From the NCBI RefSeq assembly GCF_029633865.1, contig NC_079213.1, forward strand, positions 85,552,803-85,616,802: a DNA stretch of 64,000 nt, written 5' to 3'. Every line of letters begins with the position of its first letter. Position 1 is the stretch's first letter. A model generated the notes under the pieces. The model saw nothing but the letters and a program-made list of their open reading frames with translations, did no database searches and had not been told where the DNA came from. This document shows positions 49,061 through 60,560 of this stretch, piece after piece. The DNA is from Lampris incognitus. Taxonomy: Eukaryota; Chordata; Actinopteri; Lampriformes; Lampridae. A program made the position numbers and the translations under genes.

Positions 49061-49164
49061 TTTGACGGCCTCAGGCTCCAGCCCTATTCAGCAGACACCC
49101 ACAGTGAGACACCCATTGTGGACCTAAGCCAACGACCCCCAACTTTGTACATGAGGATCCACGT

Positions 49165-50079
49165 GAGTTTGCAAAATTTAAGCTTGCATTAGACAACATA
49201 CTCCCACCTGATGCCCCAGAGTGCTTCAAGTTTCAGATATTGACAGATCACCTGAAATGTGAAGAAGCACTGCTTATTGTTGATTCGTACAGCAACGGGC
49301 TATTCCCATTCAGTGACACCATGAGAGCAGTCAATGAAATGTACGGTCAACCTCAACATCTGGCCTTAAAGCGGATCTCCAATCTGATGGATGGACCCAA
49401 CATCAAGAGTGGTGACATCAGAGCCTTCAAGTCATTTGCCCTCCAAGTCTGTGCACCAGTGGGCATGCTGCACCAGTTGGGAGACCAGGGCTGGACAGAG
49501 TTGAAGTGTGGCTCACATGTATCTCACCTCTTAGCTAAGTTGCCACACGACCGAAGAACCAATTTCCAGAGATTTGTGAATCCCATCCACACTCCTATTT
49601 CAACGCTGCTTGACCTGGCTGATTGGCTGCAGTATGAGGTACGTGTACAGGTGAATGGAGACCGGTACTGTAGTAACTCAGATAAAGAGAAGCAAGCTCC
49701 ACACAGAGACTGGCGAACTGGGTACAAGTCTACGAAGACTACTACTGTTCTCCATGGTAGTGAGCAGAAGGAAAAGTCAGAGAAAGTCATGACTGTATCT
49801 GCAGTGGATGCAACACAGGAAAAGCCAAAGAAGTACTGTCCCTTCTGTGAATCTGTGCGGCCCTTCTGTGAATCTGTGCAGCACTACATGAATAGTGTAG
49901 CAACTTCAAACTCTTGTCAAAGGCGCAGAAGACAGAGTGGATCAAGAGGAACAAGAGGTGCTGGAGATGCGGCCTTGAACACCAAGCGGCAAAGTGTACC
50001 CTCAAGACCAAGTGCAAACGGTGTGAACGAAAGCACCTTGAGGTTCTTCATAAGGTCAATACCAGCCAAAATGCCATAG
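49165..50079 (+). pseudogene. BEL/Pao gag core
   Basis: An open frame covers the conserved structural gag region of BEL/Pao elements: CFKFQILTDHLKCEEALLIV, YSNGLFPFSDTM, YGQPQHLALKRISNLMD, LKCGSHVSHLLAKLPHDRR and DLADWLQYEVRVQ. Near 49845-49890 a 21-base unit (FCESV) is duplicated in tandem. The frame leaves the knuckle/protease frame near 49905 and ends at 50079, so gag and protease are now in different frames. Confidence 0.85.
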
Positions 50080-50375
50080 CATCTGGTAAGCCCAAAGCGG
50101 CTGAAGAAAGCACTTGCTCGGTAAGTTCTATCTTGGAGGCGCTGTACCAAGATCGGCCGACAAGCAACAGTCAGGTGCCAATCAAGCTGAGTTCTATTAA
50201 CCTTCAGAGCAGCAACAAGGTACTTGAAACCTATGCTATATTGGATGATGGTTCAGAGTGCACCATAGTCCTATGCGAAGCTGCTGATCGCTTGAGCCTT
50301 CATGGGGAAGCTGAAGACCTGGCACTCCACACTGTCCGGCAAGAGGTTCATATCATCCATGGAGCCACAGTATAA
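49905..50375 (+). pseudogene. BEL/Pao CCHC knuckles and aspartic protease
   Basis: In the third frame, KRCWRCGLEHQAAKC and KCKRCERKHLEVLH form the zinc knuckles. They are followed by a protease-like segment with YAILDDGSECTIVL, where Asp-Asp-Gly-Ser takes the place of the usual Asp-Thr/Ser-Gly of retropepsins, as is common in this group. The frame ends at 50375, far short of a full protease-reverse transcriptase polyprotein. Confidence 0.8.
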
Positions 50376-50388
50376 TTTTCTGTAGCTC

Positions 50389-51930
50389 TTGCATCACAGC
50401 CTGGCAATTCTTTCCAGAGCCACAGAGCTTTCACTACAAAGGAACTCAGCCTTACCTGCCATACGTACCCAGTCAAAGCGCTGCAGGAGAGGCACCGTCA
50501 TCTTAAGGATCTGCCACTGCCGAGCATCAAGGAGGCACGGCAATTACTGCTCATCGGGTCGGATCACCCACATCTTATCACTCCAGTGGTGCCAGTACAC
50601 CTAGCCCCCCCTGGTGGACCTGCAGCTGTGCACACCAGACTTAGGTGGACTCTACAAGGCCTGTCAAGATTCCTGCACCACCGGCTAACTCCGCAGCAGG
50701 GCCTTTTCACCTTTTGTACCACTCCAGAAGCTGAGCTCTTTAGCCATGTGGAGAGACTGTGGCAGTTGGATACCCTGCCTTATCGGAGTGAGCAGCTCAT
50801 CACCAGGTTGAAGCAAGATGCATAGGCAGTCTGAAGGCTTGAGGAGAAGACAACCAGAGTTGCAGAGATACAAGAGCTATTGGACCCTGCAGCCGGGCGC
50901 TATATCGACTCTACAACTAATCCTGCTGACGATATCACAAGAGGGAAGACACTGACTCATCTCGCTGGGAATAATCACTGGAGTGAAGGGCCACACTTTC
51001 TTCAGCTGCCAACCACTGGCCAAAGGCACCAGCCGGAAAACCTACATTTGTGCTAATCAAATCAGGAAAGGCCATGCCAGCCAATAGCAGATTGCTCCCC
51101 CTTGCTCCTGAGTATGATGAGTCTTCTGACCTGATCCAAGTAGGAGGAAGACTCCGCAGGTGTAACAGTTTGAGCAAGGAAGTTATGCACCCAGTACTTC
51201 TAGCCCCCTCTCACCCAGTCACAAAGCTCCTAATCCAGGCCACCGGAGGCAGCAGACCAGGTTCCCCCAGCCAATCCAACGCCAGCTCTCCCAGCCAGAC
51301 ACCCTCGACACACCTCCTTGCACTCCACAGAACGACACCAAAAACATAGTCAACGCCAGTCGAGGCCGCTGCCAGACCGCCCTCAGTTTTATTGAAACTG
51401 CTGGTCTGCATGGGCTAACGGTTAGCTTAGCCTGCCCCATTTCCGCATCCTGTCAGACCGGCCTTGGTGTTGTAGGTGGATAGTATCCTCAACTCCAGGC
51501 TTTTGGGTTATATGCCTTTACTGACATTGCAGACCCAGATCCTGTCACACCCAACTCCTTGCCAATGGGGCAGCCGGACTGCTCCCTACCACAAGTGGTC
51601 TACCCCAAATCAGAACTGCTCAGCTGCAAGTGGTGGAGACATACTCAAGTCCTGGCCGATCATTTTTGGAGGCACTTCATATGGCACTTCCTGCCCACCT
51701 TGCAATCACGGCAGAAATTAAATACAGAGAAAACCGACATCAATGTTGGCTAGTCCTCATCGTGGATCAGCAGACTCCAAGGGCTCTCTGGCAAGTGTGA
51801 ACAGCGAAGACTGTCATACCTGGGGCAGATGGCCGAATGAGGACTGCGGTCGTCCCAAGTGAAGGACCGGACCTACACTCGCTCAGTAGCACGGCTCATC
51901 AGACTGCCCGCTCTACCCCAGGATGCTACC
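50389..51930 (+). pseudogene. BEL/Pao pol remnants
   Basis: Short pieces in different frames: ELFSHVERLWQLDTLPYRSE (reverse transcriptase start, 50586-50825), RYIDSTTNPADDITRGKTL (before the integrase, about 50900), DLIQVGGRLRRCNSLSKEV and HPVLLAPSHPVTKLLI (integrase zinc region, 51110-51235), and KVYPKSELLS-type C-terminal integrase text with ADHFWRHFIW (51480-51755). The catalytic parts between them are deleted. Confidence 0.75.
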
Positions 51931-51983
51931 AGGACATAAAGGTTTCCATGATGTCAAATTTGCACACCAAATTTGGGGGTGGC

Positions 51984-52707
51984 TATAAAAATGGCTGTGC
52001 CTCTGTGTGTGTGTTTTCCCTGTATCTCCTTGCCTGATGATGCTCTGTGAATCTGAGCTGTGCCCACTAACACAACAGTGAGTGAGACATGCAGATGACA
52101 GCAAGACCTCGCTTACTTCGGATCATGGTGACGTCCAATGCACATTTCATTTAACGTATGCGTCCATGTAATGTGAGTTTAATAATCTTTCATGTTTCTG
52201 TTACACACTGTTAGAATTTATATTTAGCCATGATCGTATTCTGCAGGGTTAGTTATTTCTGTGTGTTTACGAGACATGATTCGGAGCTAGCCGCTAGTTT
52301 GTAATAGTCTATGAGAGTTGTTTTACTGCATTCTCCTAGCTACTGTTTCTGTGCATTGCGGTCGCTAATTTTCTATTGTTTATAACCTTATACACTGAAT
52401 GTCCATTGTTTAGTGACTGTTACAGTGACTGTCGTTCATATATTGTACAGTTTGAATTCAGTGTTTGCTAATCGCTAATTGCTAGCCTATTACACTGTCA
52501 TTATTAGCCTTTAGCTCTGCATGCTAACTGTTAACTGTGTATTAGCCCTTCGCTCTGCATGCTAGCTGCTATCTGTGTAGATGCCTGTCTAGTTTGCTGT
52601 TGCTTTCTATGCTAGAATTTCCATTACTAATCAGCCTGTATTGTTGTGTCTATTGTTACAGAACTGCGCACACACACCGTTTTATGTATTGACTCCCCTT
52701 GAGATAG
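51984..52707 (+). repeat. 3' LTR of the BEL/Pao element, first part
   Basis: Direct repeat of the 5' LTR up to GAGATAG, where L1 sequences interrupt it. A polypurine-like AATTTGGGGGTGG lies just in front. Confidence 0.85.
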
Positions 52708-52708
52708 A

Positions 52709-54221
52709 TTTTTTTTTTATTGAAACACACCTTTTTATGTATCGACCCCCCCTTTGAGATAGTTTTTTTTATTGAAACGTTTAAAATCTACACATATCAA
52801 ACATAAAACAAAAGAAAGAGGGGGGAAATGGAGGTAAAGAAAATGAAGAAAATAAAATTAACTAAATGGAAAAGAGGGGAGTGCTAGGGGTTTTCTGCAA
52901 GTTCATGTTCTTCTGTCAGGACAGAGAGTTCCATAGCATTCTTCTTCTCCATTAACCTCAGTGATGAGAAATAATGACAGTTCCCTGTGCAATATGTAGA
53001 AGTTTGGCTGCGTTTTCAGGAATCTGTTCTTATGTAAAAAGAACTTTCCAAGAATAATAAGTGTGTTAATTGCCAAATCATGTGTTCCATCTTTCACAAG
53101 CATACCAAAAATCACATCCTCTTTTTTTTAGTTCAGAGAAATTGTCAAATTTAGGAAACAACCAGTAATGCAGATCTTCCCAAAAGACACCCGCAAACTG
53201 ACATTCATAAAACACATGTTCTGTTGTTTCAATGTGTTCATTGCAAAGTGAGCAGTTGTTACAGACTAAACCGGGGTGGGCAATCTTATCCAGAAAGGGC
53301 CAGTGTGTGTGAAGGTTTTTGTTCCAACCAAGCATTTACATACCTGATCCCACAAATCAACCAGTAGAGTCTTTGCTGAGGAACTTGATTAGGGGACACA
53401 GATGGGTAACTTTCGCCCACACTGGCCCTTTCTGGATAAGATTACCCACCCCTGGTCTAAACCAAATCAATGTCTTAAAAATTCTCCTGAAGGATATATT
53501 CCACTGAGATTTTAAAATGCACTTCCTTTACTTTTGGTGCAATTGGAAACTTAAACAATTTTCTCAATTTTTCAGCTTCATCTTTGGAGAAATATTGTAA
53601 AATTGAGTTTCTGTTTGATGAAAATGGATATAATTCTTTTGACAAAGACTCTTTGGAGTGTGGTGTTAGGCAATTTTAGACCGATGAGATCATGTCCATT
53701 CACCAAAAGTTTAGGAAGGTGCGGATCTACATTACTTTGATACACGTTATAAGACATCACTATTATAGAGTGTGGGATTGTTTTGATAACAGTATCATAT
53801 TGTTTTCGGTCATTTAAATAAAAATTTTAACAAAAATTCTCATAAGATATAACGTTTCCTGTATTTTCCATTAAGTGCATTACAGACCATATTTCTTTCT
53901 CCAGCCAGTTTTTATAAAATAAAAATTTATTTCTAAATACTACATACCTGCAATTCCACAAGGGGGTGGGTGGTATGGGGACTACAGTAATATCTGTTGA
54001 TGAAACATGGATAATTTGATAGGGCGTTTTTTTTGGTTTTTTTTTTTAAGGTCAATCACATCTAAGAACAAGGTTGATACCTCCAAGCTTCATAAAAATT
54101 TGGCTTGGGATATGGAACCATAAGCTGTTTTCATTTTTCACAAAGGATCTTACCAATTTATTGTGATAGTACCATTAATACATTCAATGTCAATGGCTTT
54201 TAGCCCTCCTTCCTCATAATC
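52709..54221 (-). mobile_element. L1-like LINE, 3' part (first copy)
   Basis: The minus strand reads, with breaks, as the C-terminal half of a fish L1 ORF2: YEEGGLKAIDIECINGT at the upper end, CSLCNEHIETTEHVFYECQF near 53220, then FFLHKNRFLKTQPNFYILHR near 53000. The T-run after 52708 is its poly(A) side. Flanking CTCCCCTTGAGATAG (52693-52707) and CTCCCCTCTGAGATAG (56707-56722) are a target duplication around the whole L1 nest. The target segment is partly repeated at 52738-52775, suggesting more than one event at this site. Confidence 0.75.
53272..53454. mobile_element. hAT-type MITE in the L1 copy
   Basis: It has terminal inverted repeats, GGGGTGGGCAATCTTATCCA at the left and GGGGTGGGTAATCTTATCCA inverted at the right, continuing into CAGTGTG. 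Flanks are GACTAAAC (53264-53271) and GTCTAAAC (53455-53462), an 8-base target duplication with one mismatch. Length 183 bases, no coding capacity. It splits the L1 frame just before the CSLCN motif. Confidence 0.88.
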
Positions 54222-54252
54222 TTTTTTTTTTTGGAAGATATATTTATTGGCA

Positions 54253-54680
54253 GATGAGAAAAAGAGAACAAATCTCTCTGACCAAGGCACTCCGTGTAAT
54301 TAAAAATGTCGTTATTGAAACTTAGACATATCCAAAAAGGACCTAAAAATGCCCACACGTAGCGGCTTGGGCCTTCTTCAGGGCAAACAAACTCAGATCC
54401 AACCAAACTGAAAGAAACAAGAACACTAATAGGTTTCACCCTCCTTTTCAAGGAGTATAGACACAAGAGCTTGCTCTCTGGTTGACAACAATGGCCCACT
54501 GGCCGTCTCTCTCACTCTAGCTGCCAACAATGGCCCATTGGCACTGTTGGGTGTCTCTCTCCAAGTTATATACCCAGTTGATGAACAATTGGGGTCACCT
54601 GGGCTCAATCAACAGTTCCACTGGAGGCGGGGCATTACCTGGAGAGGGAAAATTAGACACACGGCACTAGGGCCGTAACA
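54253..54680 (-). repeat. 3' LTR of the gag/RNF20-like element
   Basis: It starts TGTTACGGCCC directly after a polypurine tract (ATGGGAGGGGG). It carries a TATA-like GTATATAA (near 54570) and a CAATAA near 54310. The tract plus LTR start is duplicated about 75 bases upstream (TGTTACGACCC at 54755-54745). The final part (54385-54253) is repeated inverted at 55735-55872 with about 98% identity. Confidence 0.65.
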
Positions 54681-54805
54681 CCCCCTCCCATAAAAACAAA
54701 CCCTAGGTTTGTCTACAAGAGGGTAGCTGCAATACACGACACTGGGGTCGTAACACACCCTCCCATAAATACCAACCCTAGGTTGGCATTCAAAAGGGTA
54801 ATCCT

Positions 54806-55727
54806 CTTCACTCCGTTTCAAGTTGGCTTCGTTCTTCTCCCCGAGCTGCTGCATCAGGCGGATGTTTTGCTCCTGCATGTCCTCAAAATCCTGGCCTGTC
54901 ACATCCCTCTGCCTGGGCAAAGCATCTTCCTGTTGTTCCGCTATTGAAAGCTTCTTGTTGAGGATGTCGACCTGCTCCTCTACTGAACGAATCTTCCTCA
55001 GGGCTTCTTAGTCAGACATCTTCTCGCCTTCTCTTCGCTCCCCCTCGTCCAGGTCCTTCAGCCTCTGCCTCAGCTCCTCTGCCTCGGTCTTCTCAGCCGC
55101 CATGAGCTGGACATTTTCCCTCTGCTCCTTGGGTGCTGAGCGGTACATGTCAAGCAGCAGCTTCATCTCCCGCTGAGACTTCTGGGCTTCTTTAAGTTCT
55201 ACACGGACAAACCTCAGCTGCTCCATATCTTTCCTCCTTTGATTCACCAGCTCCAAACGAAGCTCCTCCGCCTCAACCCGCATTGCATGGCACTGGCATG
55301 TGAGGTCAGCGACGGCAGACTCGAGGTGTGCAATTCTCACCTCCTGCTTCTGGGGCTGGTTTAGGTCCTCCCTATTCCCTCTCACCTGGGACATGGCCGC
55401 CCGCCGACTGCGGTTCTGCCGCTCACATTTTAAGGCTTCACAATGGGCAACCAAATGTCCAGGCATATGGCAGAAAAAACACCGTTTCTCCACTTTAGGT
55501 TTTGGAGGGGTACCAACACGTGAAGCTTCAGCAACTTGCAAGTTAGCATTTCGTGAGTTGCTGCCACAGGGGAAGGAAATATTATGCGGCACAAAGATGT
55601 TTTTATGTGGGAGAGTGAATTCGTCTGCCAACACCGCAGCCTGATGCCTGGACACTTTATGCTCGTACTGCACCTCTAGCTGTCGCATTTTAATAGCCGT
55701 CTCTGCCTCCAATTTCTTCAATTCCAA
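54806..55727 (-). pseudogene. gag-like/RNF20-RNF40 (Bre1) fusion frame with one stop codon
   Basis: One frame runs from 55727 to about 54806, broken only by TAA at 55010-55008. Residues 1-96 are retroelement gag-like: a charged helix, [16 protein letters not shown], then a CCHC knuckle [14 protein letters not shown] at 83-96. Residues 130-170 are coiled coil of unclear origin. From about residue 171 the text follows RNF20/RNF40, the E3 ligases for histone H2B monoubiquitination: [44 protein letters not shown] and, after the stop, EALRKIRSVEEQV and FEDMQEQNIRLMQQL. The RING domain is not included. No intron interrupts the roughly 400 bases of host-like sequence. The frame could have made a gag-coiled-coil protein before the stop arose. 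Confidence 0.75.
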
Positions 55728-55734
55728 CCCCTAT

Positions 55735-55894
55735 GCCGTGAAGAAGGCCCAAGCCGCTACGCGTGGGCATTTTTAGGTCCTTTTTGGATATGTCTAAGTT
55801 TCAATAAAGACATTTTTAATTACACGGAGTGCCTTGGTCAGAGAGATTTGTTCTCTTTTTCTTATCTGAAACTACTAACCTTGGACCAAAGAGC
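55735..55894 (+). repeat. inverted LTR-end fragment
   Basis: It carries GAAGAAGGCCCAAGCCGCTA, a TCAATAAAGACA poly(A)-type signal and GGAGTGCCTTGGTCAGAGAG, then continues past the left copy to GAGCACCCAACA, a plausible LTR end. It is opposite in orientation to the 3' LTR at 54253-54680. Confidence 0.7.
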
Positions 55895-56706
55895 ACCCAA
55901 CAAATATATTACTTAACTACAGAGAGGACTGAGCACACCACTGACTCCAAACATATATATTTATTGGCATTTACAATTTTAATATATACAAGTCACATAT
56001 TGATTAATTTAACACAATAATCCCCCCCCGACATTCCCAGATCCTCAAGGAGAAATACAGATTAACAAAATAATGAAATTACACACAACTAAATCGAAGA
56101 CAAAAAAAATCCCAGTCTTTTATACTGGTTATAGTGTCAAAGCAAGTCAGAAATTACATCCAGACTTTCTTGAACTTGTCCCTGTTACCCCTTAAGGTAA
56201 ATTTTATCTTTTCCAACTTAAGATAAAACATAATATTCCTGATCCATCTGACATGGGATGGGGGTCTTGAGCTCTTCCAGTTTAAGAGTATTAGGCGCCG
56301 AGCTAGTAATGTAGTAAAGGCCACCAATTTATATTTGTTAGATGGCCAGTCACAGTCGTCCGGTCTCACACCAAGTATGGCAATTAAAGGATGCGGATCA
56401 ATGGTTGTACTGAAAATTTCACTTAAAGATTTAAATATTGCTGACCAAAATGTGTGTCGATCAGGGCATGTCCAGAACATATGCAACAAGGTTGCTGGTA
56501 ATCTTTAACCATAATCCCTTTTCTAATATAATGTGTTTTTCTTTTCCAAATATAATTAAAGTTGACCTGGTTTATTGCGGTCATTGCATTTTTGGGGAGT
56601 GGCGTCGAGTAAGCTTGGTAAATGAATCTTGAAATGCACTCCATTTTTGTGAGAAAAAGTCGGCCAATAACAGAGATGTCTCTTTGGGACCACAAATTTA
56701 GATAAG

Positions 56707-56861
56707 CTCCCCTCTGAGATAGACAAAGAGCCTAAATGCTGGACCTGGACTCTGCATCTCCTTTTTCCACACTCTCACCTGAACACAAAAATAGTGTCCT
56801 AACCTGACACCCTGAAGTGATTGCTGCCACACCTGTGGATCCATATACATTCTCACACACA
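56707..56861 (+). repeat. 3' LTR of the BEL/Pao element, second part
   Basis: It resumes at CTGAGATAGACAAAGAGCCT and matches 47755-47909 to the end (CATTCTCACACACA). The short SINE tail GAGAGTGAATTTCATTGTAT follows directly. Confidence 0.85.
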
Positions 56862-57931
56862 GAGAGAGTGAATTTCATTGTATAGTATATGTGCAAATGA
56901 CCGTGTATTCTAATCTATTCTATTCTAGAGATCAAATCAGACTCGGGTGTCCATGGGTGGGTGATGTTTTTCACTTGAATTTCAATTCTAAACCTAGAGG
57001 CGTAGCAATTTTGGTTAATAGAACTGTCCAATTTACTGCCTCTAAGATTATAGCCAATAAGAATGGCAGCTATTTGATTGTTGCAGGCATTGTATGCCAC
57101 AAACCTGTATTCTTGGTGAATATATACGCTTCGAATTTTGACAACCCAGATTTCACAGATAATTGTTTGGTACCCTCCCTTTCTTAAACACTCACCTTTT
57201 GATATTGGGTGGTGATCTGAACTGTGTCACTGATCCCGCTTTAGACCGCTTGAATCCCCGAACTCTGACCCAGTCCTCCATGTCCAAATCAATTTCAGAA
57301 CTTATGCTCTAGAATGGTTTTGTTGATCCCAGGAGATTTTATAACCCACAAGCTAAGGAATCTCCTTTTTGTCCACATGTACACCAGTCATATTCCCGCG
57401 TTAACTTTTTTTTGTTGATAGTTCTCTTATCCCTAAAGTGACCGCCTCTGAATATCATTCGGTTGTCATTTTGAATCATACTCCCCTAAGTCTAAACATA
57501 AAATATTTGGACCAGCTCTGTTTTTCATCACCCTGGAGGTTTAATTCCCTACTGTTGTCTGATGATGCATCCTTTATCTCGTCCACAATTGATTACTTTA
57601 TTGCTATCAATTAAAATGATTCTGCCTCTTCAAAACATATCTGCATGGGCAAATAAGTTCCTATTCAGCATATTCCAATAAAAGCTGTAAGGCCAAGTTG
57701 CAAGAGCTACCAACTAAAATCTTGATGACAGACTGACAAAATGCAATCAATCCAACCCTGAGATTGCTGAAGCGGTGACTCAGTTTGCAGGCAGATTTAA
57801 CCGTTATAACAACAATGGACACAATGTTTTCTATTATACTACCACCGTAATGATTATGAATATGGTGACAAGTCGAGCAGACTATTAGCCCATCAACTGA
57901 AACAACAGGCTACCTCTTGATTCCTCAAATT

Positions 57932-58361
57932 GATTCCTGGGCCATCCAGGTAGCGTAGCAGTCTATTCGGTTGCCTACCAACATGGGGATCGCCAGTTCG
58001 AATCCCTGTGTTACCTCCGGTTTGGTTCGGCGTCCCTACAGACACAATTTGGCGTGTCTGCGGGTGGGAAGCTGGATGTGGGTATGTGTCCTGGTCGCTG
58101 CACTCGCGCCTTCCCTGGTTAGTCTGGGTGCCTGTTCAGGGAGGAGGGGGAACTGGGGGGAATAGCATGAGCCTCCATGCACTACGTCCCCTCTGGCGAA
58201 ACTCCTCCTTATCAGTTGAAAAGAAGCGGGTGGCGGGAGGAAGCATGTTGTAGTCTGCAGTCATACCCAGATTGGCAGAGGGGGTGGAGCAGTGACTGGG
58301 ACGGCTTGGAAAATAGGGTAATTGACCAAGTGCAATTGGGGAGAAAATGGTGGTGGTGGGG
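57932..58361 (+). repeat. tRNA-derived SINE
   Basis: Perfect 15-base flanking duplication TTGATTCCTCAAATT (57917-57931 and 58362-58376). Head GGGCCATCCAGGTAGCGTAG, box-B-like AGTTCGAATCCC, body with GTGTCTGCGGGTGGGAAGCT and GGTATGTGTCCTGGTCGCTG, and end CAATTGGGGAGAAAATGG. About 430 bases. Confidence 0.9.
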
Positions 58362-58419
58362 TTGATTCCTCAAATTAAGGATTCCACCACCATGCTCTGT
58401 GTAAGTACATTGAGAACCA

Positions 58420-58490
58420 CTGAATCGGAGAAAAATTCCTTGTATGTGTAAGCATACTTGGCCAAATAAAGATGATTCTCATTCTGATGC
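58420..58490 (+). repeat. LINE 3' tail
   Basis: AAAAATTCCTTGTATGTGTA and TACTTGGCCAAATAAAGATG followed by ATTCTG-like units; no coding part remains. Confidence 0.6.
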
Positions 58491-59062
58491 TTATTTCTAA
58501 CCCAACAGCCATCAATGTATTTTTAAGACTTTATTGTTCTCTCTGTTAATCCAAGTCTTCGTCAGACATGGCAGAAATGACTTCCTTCAGAATCTTGAGG
58601 CCCCTAATGTTGAAATTACACTTTCTATTAAAGCCATACAAAGTAATCAAGCACCTGGATTCCTTGTCAGGTCTTTTTAAGAAATTCATGAATAAACTAG
58701 CTCCACTAGTGAACTGTGACTCTTAAAGGGAGACTTTGCTGGTTTTTATGTGGATGTCCAGTCAGTGTTGAGCACAATATATATAGCCAATTGAAGCAAA
58801 AATTCCACAGCACATGCTATACTGACAGAGAAATTCACGTTTTCCTGGTCGCAGACCCATGCCGACAGTGTCTCCATGTACAAGATGCATTGCGCGCAAA
58901 CATCTATGACGCCCAAACCCCAAATCCTCCCAAAGACCGCCCAGATTATGGAGGTGAGCGTTTTTTGTGGCTCTGTGTACAAAGAAAGGCATCTTAAAAT
59001 CTTAACTCTTAGATCGGAAAACTGAAAAACGACGAATTGGATTAGATTTATTGACAACAAAT

Positions 59063-59399
59063 ATGTCTTCTTGTTGTATCATGTTTGGATGCAACAACTA
59101 CAGAACGAAGAAAGAGGAGGAAGTAAGCGTAAACTACCACCAATTACCAAGAGATGTTGAATGGTGCAAAGAATGGCTTCAAGTGATTAAAAAGCCCCAA
59201 ATATGATGAGAACGCACCAACATCAGTACTCGGAAATCTTCGGGTATGCTCTTTGCATTTTGCAGCAGATGACTACAACAGGGACATAGAGTCAGAGTTG
59301 ATGGGAGGAAGTATCAAGAAATTGCTGAAGACATCTGCTGTGCCCAGTCTTTTTGGAAACGATATTGGCCATGGCAATGGAGAACACCCAGAGAAGTGA
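59063..59399 (+). pseudogene. THAP-domain reading frame, one frameshift
   Basis: The frame starts at an ATG and encodes a THAP zinc finger (a C2CH DNA-binding fold): CCIMFGC at the start, YHQLPRDVEWCKEWLQ in the middle, then after a one-base shift near 59203, LRVCSLHFAADDY (the C-x2-H pair) and AVPSLF, matching the THAP AVPxxF box. It ends at TGA 59397-59399 with a GTAAGC donor just after (59412). THAP domains occur in host THAP proteins and in P-element- and Kolobok-type transposases. No transposase core is visible, so which of these it is remains open. Confidence 0.7.
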
Positions 59400-60560
59400 G
59401 ATCAAATAGAGGTAAGCTGTTTTTAGCTAATGTTAGTTATATTGAATGTAAAATAAATAAATGTACACCACATTGAATGCATAGCATGCAAAATTCCACT
59501 TTGTGTCTGCTCTATTAAGTACTGAGATGGTTTACAGGTACAACTGCTAGTCATAGTTATTTTCACTCTCACCGTAGATTGAAGAACAAACTGCCTCTGC
59601 TTCTACTGCCACAGGCATGTGCCCAGTTGTGGGACAGAAACACAACCTGTTGCTGCTTCAGCCCACAGTCAGGGTGGGCTCGTTTTAGAGATAAGACTTG
59701 GCTATAACTTTAGAAACTAATGCTAATTGAAACTTTGTCTTGTCACTTTGACTGTAATTTACTGGAAGTAAATTGACTAAGTAATTCCTTTGCTTACAAA
59801 TTGCAGACATCATCACTCCTGATCCCTCACTTAGCCTGCTCTTCCCTCAAACATTGCAGCAGTCCCAAAACCAACCAAACAAGAAGCACCTGTGAAGCAC
59901 CAGTCCCGTTTTCCAAAGTGACGTAATGAGAAGTATAAAAATGGCTGAGGAAAGATAAAAATACTGGGCAATTCAGTTATTGGCCTTTTGGACTTATTTC
60001 ACCTGTTAGTGGATTCATATCCCCTTAATTTATCATTTACATTTTCAATTATGCAATAGTGACTTAACAGTACTATAATTTAACTATAACTGTACAATAG
60101 TTCAACTCTGCAATACTGTAGCGTATATTTATACTGTATTAGAACTGCATTCATACTGTACATCCTGCAATATTTTTTATATATTTCTTTTTCTATATAT
60201 ATTGTATAATGCACATATTTTTAACATGTCATTTTTCTTATGCTTATATGTATTTTCTCTTTTACAATGTGAGCAACTGTACCATGACCCAATCTCCCCA
60301 CGGGGATCAATAAAGTGTTTCTGATTATGTTGATAATTTTTCTTAGCCATTCAAAAGCTTGAATAGTAATTGAGTTTGAAATGGGTGTTCTTCAAAATGT
60401 CTTTTCAGGCAGTCATGCCAGGCTGCAGATAGATCTAGTTACCTTTGAAATAACACATTTTGGTCATGGAGAGAACACTGGCATTTACTGCTGTGTACAT
60501 CTACTGATGCCCTTGGAATCATCTTCAGTGATGTTCCTGCAATAATTGGGTGTTTCTGGT
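59400..60560. other. no gene; exon-like scrap and LINE tail
   Basis: A segment after TCACCGTAG (from 59578) is open for 36 codons and might have been a second exon of the THAP frame. A LINE-type tail with CTCCCCACGGGGATCAATAA ends near 60315. The rest is AT-rich. Confidence 0.4.

Follow-up and report, generated by a model that had tools for sequence, protein, structure and literature searches.

A non-autonomous LTR retrotransposon family of the fish Lampris incognitus, very probably formed by stepwise uptake of two spliced host mRNAs

Results

Organization of the element in the window

We have analyzed a stretch of 64,000 nucleotides of the Lampris incognitus genome (NC_079213.1, positions 85,552,803 to 85,616,802; hereafter the window), in which a first-pass annotation made from the sequence alone had placed an LTR element with part of RNF20/RNF40 at positions 54253-55954. 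The whole element reads on the minus strand, and nothing was gained by reading it on the plus strand. Its central feature is an ORF of 240 residues (55730-55008) that ends at a TAA (Table 1) and that, as had been proposed, runs without a break from a gag-like part with a CCHC knuckle into an RNF20-like coiled coil, here of 76 residues. Residues 1-103 correspond to gag (coiled coil, capsid tail and knuckle), residues 104-164 to a host gene that we take to be ccdc57, and residues 165-240, together with the next 64 codons, to RNF20. Gag and RNF20 do share one frame, as had been claimed, but they are not directly adjacent, the 61 residues between them belonging to this second host gene. Similarly, the single stop and the resumption of RNF20 homology past it, in the frame that follows, were found as described, although the continuation comprises 64 RNF20 residues and not about 50.

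The polypurine tract and the LTR reported beyond the RNF20 part are both present, but only the first ~295 of the ~480 nt of the LTR remain, and the 5′ LTR and the start of gag are absent from the window copy. The region around the polypurine tract and the LTR start is tandemly repeated here and also in three other copies (L018, L019 and L022), an arrangement suggestive of slippage or of multiple initiation at the 3′ end. Other copies in the genome match the window copy from 54385-54389 to about 55731. Thus the core of the proposed interval is indeed an LTR element while its ends are not, as they consist of a 135-nt inverted repeat (54251-54385 and 55734-55868, arms 97% identical) belonging to a separate dispersed repeat, a 221-nt copy of which (97%) was found in L027, ~1 kb from the LTR of that locus. 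Because both ends of the element meet this foreign repeat and a 15-nt direct repeat (ATATATTTATTGGCA, at 54238-54252 and 55955-55969) encloses the entire structure, we consider the window copy to be a fragment within a nested insertion.

Table 1. Features of the element and of its immediate flanks in the window (the gene name ccdc57 is presumptive)
Feature	Position	Strand	Remarks
Gag remnant	55593..55730	-	Coiled coil joined directly to the last capsid piece; the capsid itself is missing
CCHC zinc knuckle of gag	55440..55481	-	Similar knuckle in the gag relatives L030 and L031
ccdc57 exon b remnant, 24 residues	55350..55421	-	Host exon C22:15771147-15771359
ccdc57 exons d and e, spliced, 37 residues	55239..55349	-	Host exons C22:15775803-15776194; intervening intron absent
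rnf20 exons A, B and part of C	55011..55238	-	76 residues, in frame with gag
TAA within the rnf20 part of the window copy	55008..55010	-	Read from the letters
Remaining rnf20 piece (end of exon C, part of exon D)	54816..55007	-	Sequence match
Two 75-nt tandem units, 77%	54643..54792	-	Each repeats the polypurine tract/LTR start region
Polypurine tract GGGAGGGGG	54681..54689	-	Same motif precedes the 3′ LTR in other copies
Truncated 3′ LTR	54386..54680	-	First ~295 of ~480 nt
Inverted repeat, left arm, 135 nt	54251..54385	+	Foreign to the element
221-nt dispersed repeat, right flank	55734..55954	-	Right arm of the inverted repeat formed by its first 135 nt

Other mobile element remains lie nearby. 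Frames recognized by eye as BEL/Pao-type gag and pol remains occupy 49108-51800 on the plus strand, and frames resembling, also by eye, the terminal part of the reverse transcriptase ORF of a LINE are found at 52903-53826 and 56154-56774 on the minus strand. As these LINE-like frames stand on both sides, the nested insertion may have split one LINE copy. Neither Rfam, applied to positions 50000-60000, nor a scan of the whole window for tRNA genes gave any match.

Two host genes as sources of the inserted pieces

The identification of the coiled coil as RNF20/RNF40 was borne out by comparison with PDB chains, in which the first piece matched BRE1B (E = 2.7e-18) and BRE1A (E = 2.9e-18) and the second BRE1A (E = 3.7e-20), both being collinear with residues 618-764 of human RNF20. 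The parent gene, which the first-pass annotation had suggested looking for in the same species, was found by searching the L. incognitus genome (1.48 Gb, 537 contigs) with the part of a fish RNF20 that lies downstream of the captured piece. There is one rnf20 gene, at C1:28.47-28.48 Mb (98% over the RING end), whose exon junctions could be mapped. A weaker match of this query at C22:12.12 Mb was taken for rnf40, which is excluded as the parent as the copies follow rnf20 in a diagnostic stretch. The rnf20 piece of the window spans four host exons (mapped in L041) and is devoid of their three introns, every join being exact, and both of its ends are internal to the rnf20 mRNA. The introns are seamlessly gone at mapped splice sites, which shows that capture went via spliced RNA, as had been supposed. 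Moreover, it is RNF20/40 and the exons of the host's own rnf20 (87.1-94.9% identical in 24 copies, 88.7% in the window copy), instead of a retroelement protein family, that this segment matches.

The 61 residues between the knuckle and RNF20 likewise come from an intron-bearing host gene and not from gag. Three exons at C22:15772148-15776194 match this stretch, a further exon lies just upstream (C22:15771147-15771359), and ~7 kb before that one, in the same orientation, are two more (C22:15764606-15765092), these last matching a piece that follows RNF20 in two older copies. Within its match the first exon of this upstream pair has one TGA, which probably lies past the splice site. Since all six exons are on one strand and in order, they most likely constitute one gene. 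Searches with Pfam, PDB and protein databases returned no name for it; we presume, from the human protein CCDC57, that it is ccdc57, and we use this name below.

Copies of the element in the genome

The union of gag and RNF20 is not a local rearrangement of the window. Among the best 40 of 928 candidate matches, the window's own included, 38 cover both the knuckle and rnf20, and there are complete copies with LTR pairs and target duplications. The genome contains, besides the rnf20 and rnf40 genes, at least 84 rnf20-like loci, a lower bound because it derives from two lists of which 96 of 96 and 150 of 186 candidates were scored. Among the matches listed, the ccdc57 piece abuts rnf20 (at a distance of 60 nt or less) in 67 of the 84 loci, is within 1.5 kb of it without abutting in two, and is not found nearby in 15, which include one clustering artefact and L043, whose ccdc57 piece is damaged; another 19 loci listed bear ccdc57 with no rnf20 within 1.5 kb.

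Direct repeats of at least 283 nt, 88.4-98.75% identical, flank 14 of the 20 copies fetched. Five copies are cleanly bounded by TGTTAC..GTAACA (one end being ATAACA), with LTRs of 462-487 nt that are 97.1-98.75% identical, so that the paired LTRs with TG..CA ends missing from the truncated window copy are present in these five. Three of them show a perfect 5-bp target duplication (GGGTA, CCCCC and GTCGC), one a 4-bp duplication and one a duplication matching at 4/5 positions. After the 5′ LTR there is a primer site, TGGGGGCTCGTCCGGGAT, presumably of the tRNA-Pro type, which is exact in three and has one change in six of the nine copies displayed, and the 3′ LTR is preceded by the polypurine tract TGGGAGGGGG, exact in four of the five cleanly bounded copies and with one change in the fifth. 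The LTR ends and target duplications that mark these copies indicate real retrotransposition, and the family has all the hallmarks of LTR retrotransposons (LTR pairs, target duplication, primer site and polypurine tract); it may belong to the Ty3/gypsy (metavirus) clade. However, it does not have the pol of an autonomous element. The internal part of the five cleanly bounded copies, 1.68-1.86 kb long, is filled by gag, ccdc57 and rnf20, and among the frames listed for them no reverse transcriptase or integrase-like frame was recognized by eye, the Pfam run having been confined to the window ORFs, which agrees with the earlier statement that pol is absent. A frame of 1907 residues in one copy was discarded as an artefact of a run of N.

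Older copies and gag relatives

Several loci preserve arrangements that differ from that of the short form to which the window copy belongs. Gag relatives with a capsid were found in L030, L031, L033 and L035; the capsid of L031 matches SCAN (PF02023) at 2.1e-8, and L030 has a weak protease match, below the cut-off. The LTR that they share with the short form was detected in five of the six gag relatives tested (L030-L033, L035 and L036, within reach), full-length and 94.7-96.1% identical in three and in pieces of 87.6-98.1% in two, the exception being L033, with no family LTR within ~1.5 kb on either side of the gag match. In the same ~1.5 kb on either side of the gag matches of the relatives, no autonomous helper with a reverse transcriptase was seen. 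In L030 and L031 (1.4-3.4 kb), a protease-like part is followed by a part that we take to be like the integrase C-terminus; as nothing stands between these two parts, these relatives may be internally deleted too.

In L048, gag with capsid and knuckle is followed by ccdc57 exons b, c, d and e and then by the 3′ end, without rnf20. L051 and L052 also lack rnf20 and contain ccdc57 exons c, d and e followed by the upstream exons a, that is, in permuted order; at the L052 locus, the only one of the two looked at in this respect, a gag match lies ~0.7 kb upstream. In L042 and L043 the capsid is lost, and ccdc57 exons d and e are followed by a longer rnf20 piece, from which a fourth intron is gone, and then by ccdc57 exons a. 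The short form keeps rnf20 in part, the remainder up to the 3′ end being deleted, and it has neither capsid nor pol. L044 has rnf20 and then a second knuckle, and one copy among L044 and L049 has a second ccdc57 piece as well, as if two elements had recombined.

A tree of the rnf20 piece forms a ladder from the host gene through L042/L043 to the short forms, with uneven branch support (0.12-0.98), and at only seven sites of the piece do at least 90% of the copies share a non-host base. Common descent therefore rests on the join more than on these shared changes. The ccdc57/rnf20 join was identical in the eight copies (8/8) read base by base, and this, together with the 67 abutting loci among the matches listed, makes independent captures unlikely.

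Coding capacity of the fusion

The first-pass annotation had called for further copies with an intact frame. Of 21 copies examined, three have a frame open from the gag coil to the end of rnf20 (two by a cruder keyword test), and in ten the open part starts ahead of the knuckle and reaches the rnf20 end; the window copy falls in neither class. It is possible, if doubtful, that the chimeric Gag works as a protein, in which the gag coil, the knuckle and the host coiled coils would replace the capsid in assembly or packaging, or would attach to the host's own RNF20/RNF40 or to the product of ccdc57, thereby tethering the particle or opposing H2B ubiquitination. The open copies would be in line with this, as would the gain of coiled coils while the capsid was lost. 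The frame is kept by seven of the ten indels common to two or more copies, compared with 10 of 29 private ones (p = 0.07), and five of the six kinds of recurrent gap in the rnf20 piece are multiples of three. Furthermore, the ratio of non-silent to silent changes relative to the host, in 22 copies, was 0.36 for changes found in at least 70% of the copies, 0.62 and 0.64 in the intermediate classes and 1.25 for private ones. On the other hand, 18 of the 21 copies are broken, three of the ten shared indels disrupt the frame, and so does the sixth recurrent rnf20 gap, a 2-nt one that four copies share at one position. The value of 0.36 also includes silent changes on the host branch, and over the whole frame the ratio by allele class was 0.92 for changes in a single copy, 0.88 for those in two or three and 0.58 for those in four or more, the difference between single and shared changes not being significant (p = 0.41; rnf20 part, p = 0.18). 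Nor was a fixed domain kept, as rnf20 was shortened by a later deletion that also took away the ccdc57 piece downstream of it. When the window ORF was searched against proteins, 12 were returned, with alignments covering 13-32% of the query, and no gag fusion was recognized among them. All these data amount to weak evidence of a past coding constraint of some kind, and a specific function finds no support in them. For the most part, the host pieces are most likely passengers at the former site of pol.

Joins between gag and host sequences

The three joins lie within short stretches shared by both partners: gag/ccdc57 within AGCAGCAG (8 nt of microhomology, with L031 used in place of the ancestral gag), ccdc57/rnf20 within AAGAGGA (7 nt) and rnf20/ccdc57 within AGCTGGAG (8 nt, one host exon being represented by an element copy). 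In a control on the real sequences, which assumes uniform breakpoints and covers the two rnf20 joins and not the gag join, random breakpoints reached runs of 7 and 8 nt in 0.28% and 0.08% of the draws for ccdc57/rnf20 and rnf20/ccdc57, respectively. The GAG/CAG-rich codons of coiled coils raise the frequency of such short matches. This microhomology, and the location of both rnf20 ends inside the mRNA, fit a reverse transcriptase that switched onto a packaged spliced mRNA and back.

The permuted order of the ccdc57 exons in L051 and L052 (e and then a) is what back-splicing would yield, so that a circular ccdc57 RNA could be invoked as their source. This is very improbable, because the join lies inside exon e and not at a splice site, and a backward jump of the reverse transcriptase on the ccdc57 mRNA fits better. 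Finally, that LINE-made processed pseudogenes of rnf20 and ccdc57 landed in an LTR element as DNA and were then carried along is hardly credible, for although there are LINE-like frames (by eye) near the window fragment and the 15-nt direct repeat around it is typical of LINE-type insertion, that repeat stems from the outer insertion in which the window copy lies, whereas the cleanly bounded copies have LTR-type duplications of 4-5 bp, no poly(A) is present at the ccdc57/rnf20 join (eight copies displayed) or at the rnf20/ccdc57 join (two displayed), the rnf20 piece has both ends internal to the mRNA and 7-8 nt of microhomology at both joins, and neither a poly(A) end nor a duplication of its own was found around the host piece.

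Discussion

In this work we have followed up an apparent capture of RNF20/RNF40 sequence by a fish LTR element. The capture itself stood, but the first-pass annotation had missed the second captured gene, the loss of the capsid, the older intermediates and the nested, fragmentary state of the window copy. The host segments stand directly after the gag knuckle with their introns exactly removed, the copies read base by base have the same ccdc57/rnf20 join, and intermediates exist in the same genome. Very probably, what the window contains is a fragment from a family of non-autonomous LTR retrotransposons, a family that acquired two spliced host mRNAs in steps, by template switching, and then spread. 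According to this model, virus-like particles of an autonomous relative would have packaged element RNA along with the mRNA of ccdc57 and, at a later stage, with that of rnf20. At the 7-8 nt of shared sequence described above, the reverse transcriptase would have jumped and then jumped back, and these jumps would have replaced pol while leaving the LTR, the primer site and the polypurine tract in place. The capsid would have been lost after the gag-ccdc57 stage but before the stage with rnf20, and the short form would have moved in trans, with the capsid, reverse transcriptase and integrase of a relative.

Fusions of gag to host coding sequence without pol are known from the maize LTR retroelement Bs1 and from transforming gag-onc retroviruses, in which gag is in frame with a piece of host coding sequence, pol is lost and a helper is needed. 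The gag-onc viruses are infectious and exogenous, whereas the family described here is endogenous and multicopy. Bs1 is reported to have transduced pieces of three host genes (PMC13317346; PMC7264820), and its later chimeric gene to be transcribed and translated (PMC13317346). Bs1 is the closest precedent; in both cases an LTR element has gag fused to pieces of more than one host gene. Unlike Bs1, a plant element with three genes, the Lampris family lies in an animal genome, has two genes, exists in dozens of copies and still has its older intermediates.

In LTR-mediated retroposition, described in metazoans including zebrafish (Tan et al., as reported in PMC5408686), the template is switched where the RNA of the LTR element and a packaged host mRNA share microsimilarity. 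The likeness to our case is the template switching at microsimilarity with host mRNA. LTR-mediated retroposition is presented there, however, as a source of host-gene retrocopies, while here the fusion became a replicating family that later took a further mRNA. Crocodilian endogenous retroviruses are likewise vertebrate LTR elements with captured host mRNA, KIT-ligand or nectin3, the latter in six insertions (PMC4299795). These are retroviruses with one captured gene each, whereas here capture was serial, in the gag frame and in an element without pol or capsid. Since Bs1, metazoan LTR-mediated retroposition and the crocodilian viruses precede our work, the mechanism of capture was already known. 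In the literature listings that we searched, we found no animal element, present in dozens of copies and with its intermediates preserved, in which host genes had been captured serially in fusion with gag, and none of the titles or starts of abstracts listed concerned the capture of RNF20 or CCDC57 by a retrotransposon. As far as these listings go, the family would be the first equivalent of maize Bs1 in an animal.

As a rule, the capture of genes by LTR elements has to be inferred from a single final product. In the L. incognitus genome a series has been preserved that leads from an element with a capsid, through one captured gene, a permuted piece and a second captured gene, to a short amplified form, and because of this the two-switch model of retroviral gene transduction can be tested from the junctions. 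It is conceivable, although unlikely, that retrotransposons of this animal lineage accumulate coding pieces for coiled coils by repeated switches guided by GAG/CAG-rich codons, and that the host coils would take the place of the capsid or link the element to chromatin with RNF20/RNF40 or to the ccdc57 product, in a form that outgrew its ancestors. In any case, the series raises the question of whether coiled-coil messages are favoured for capture.
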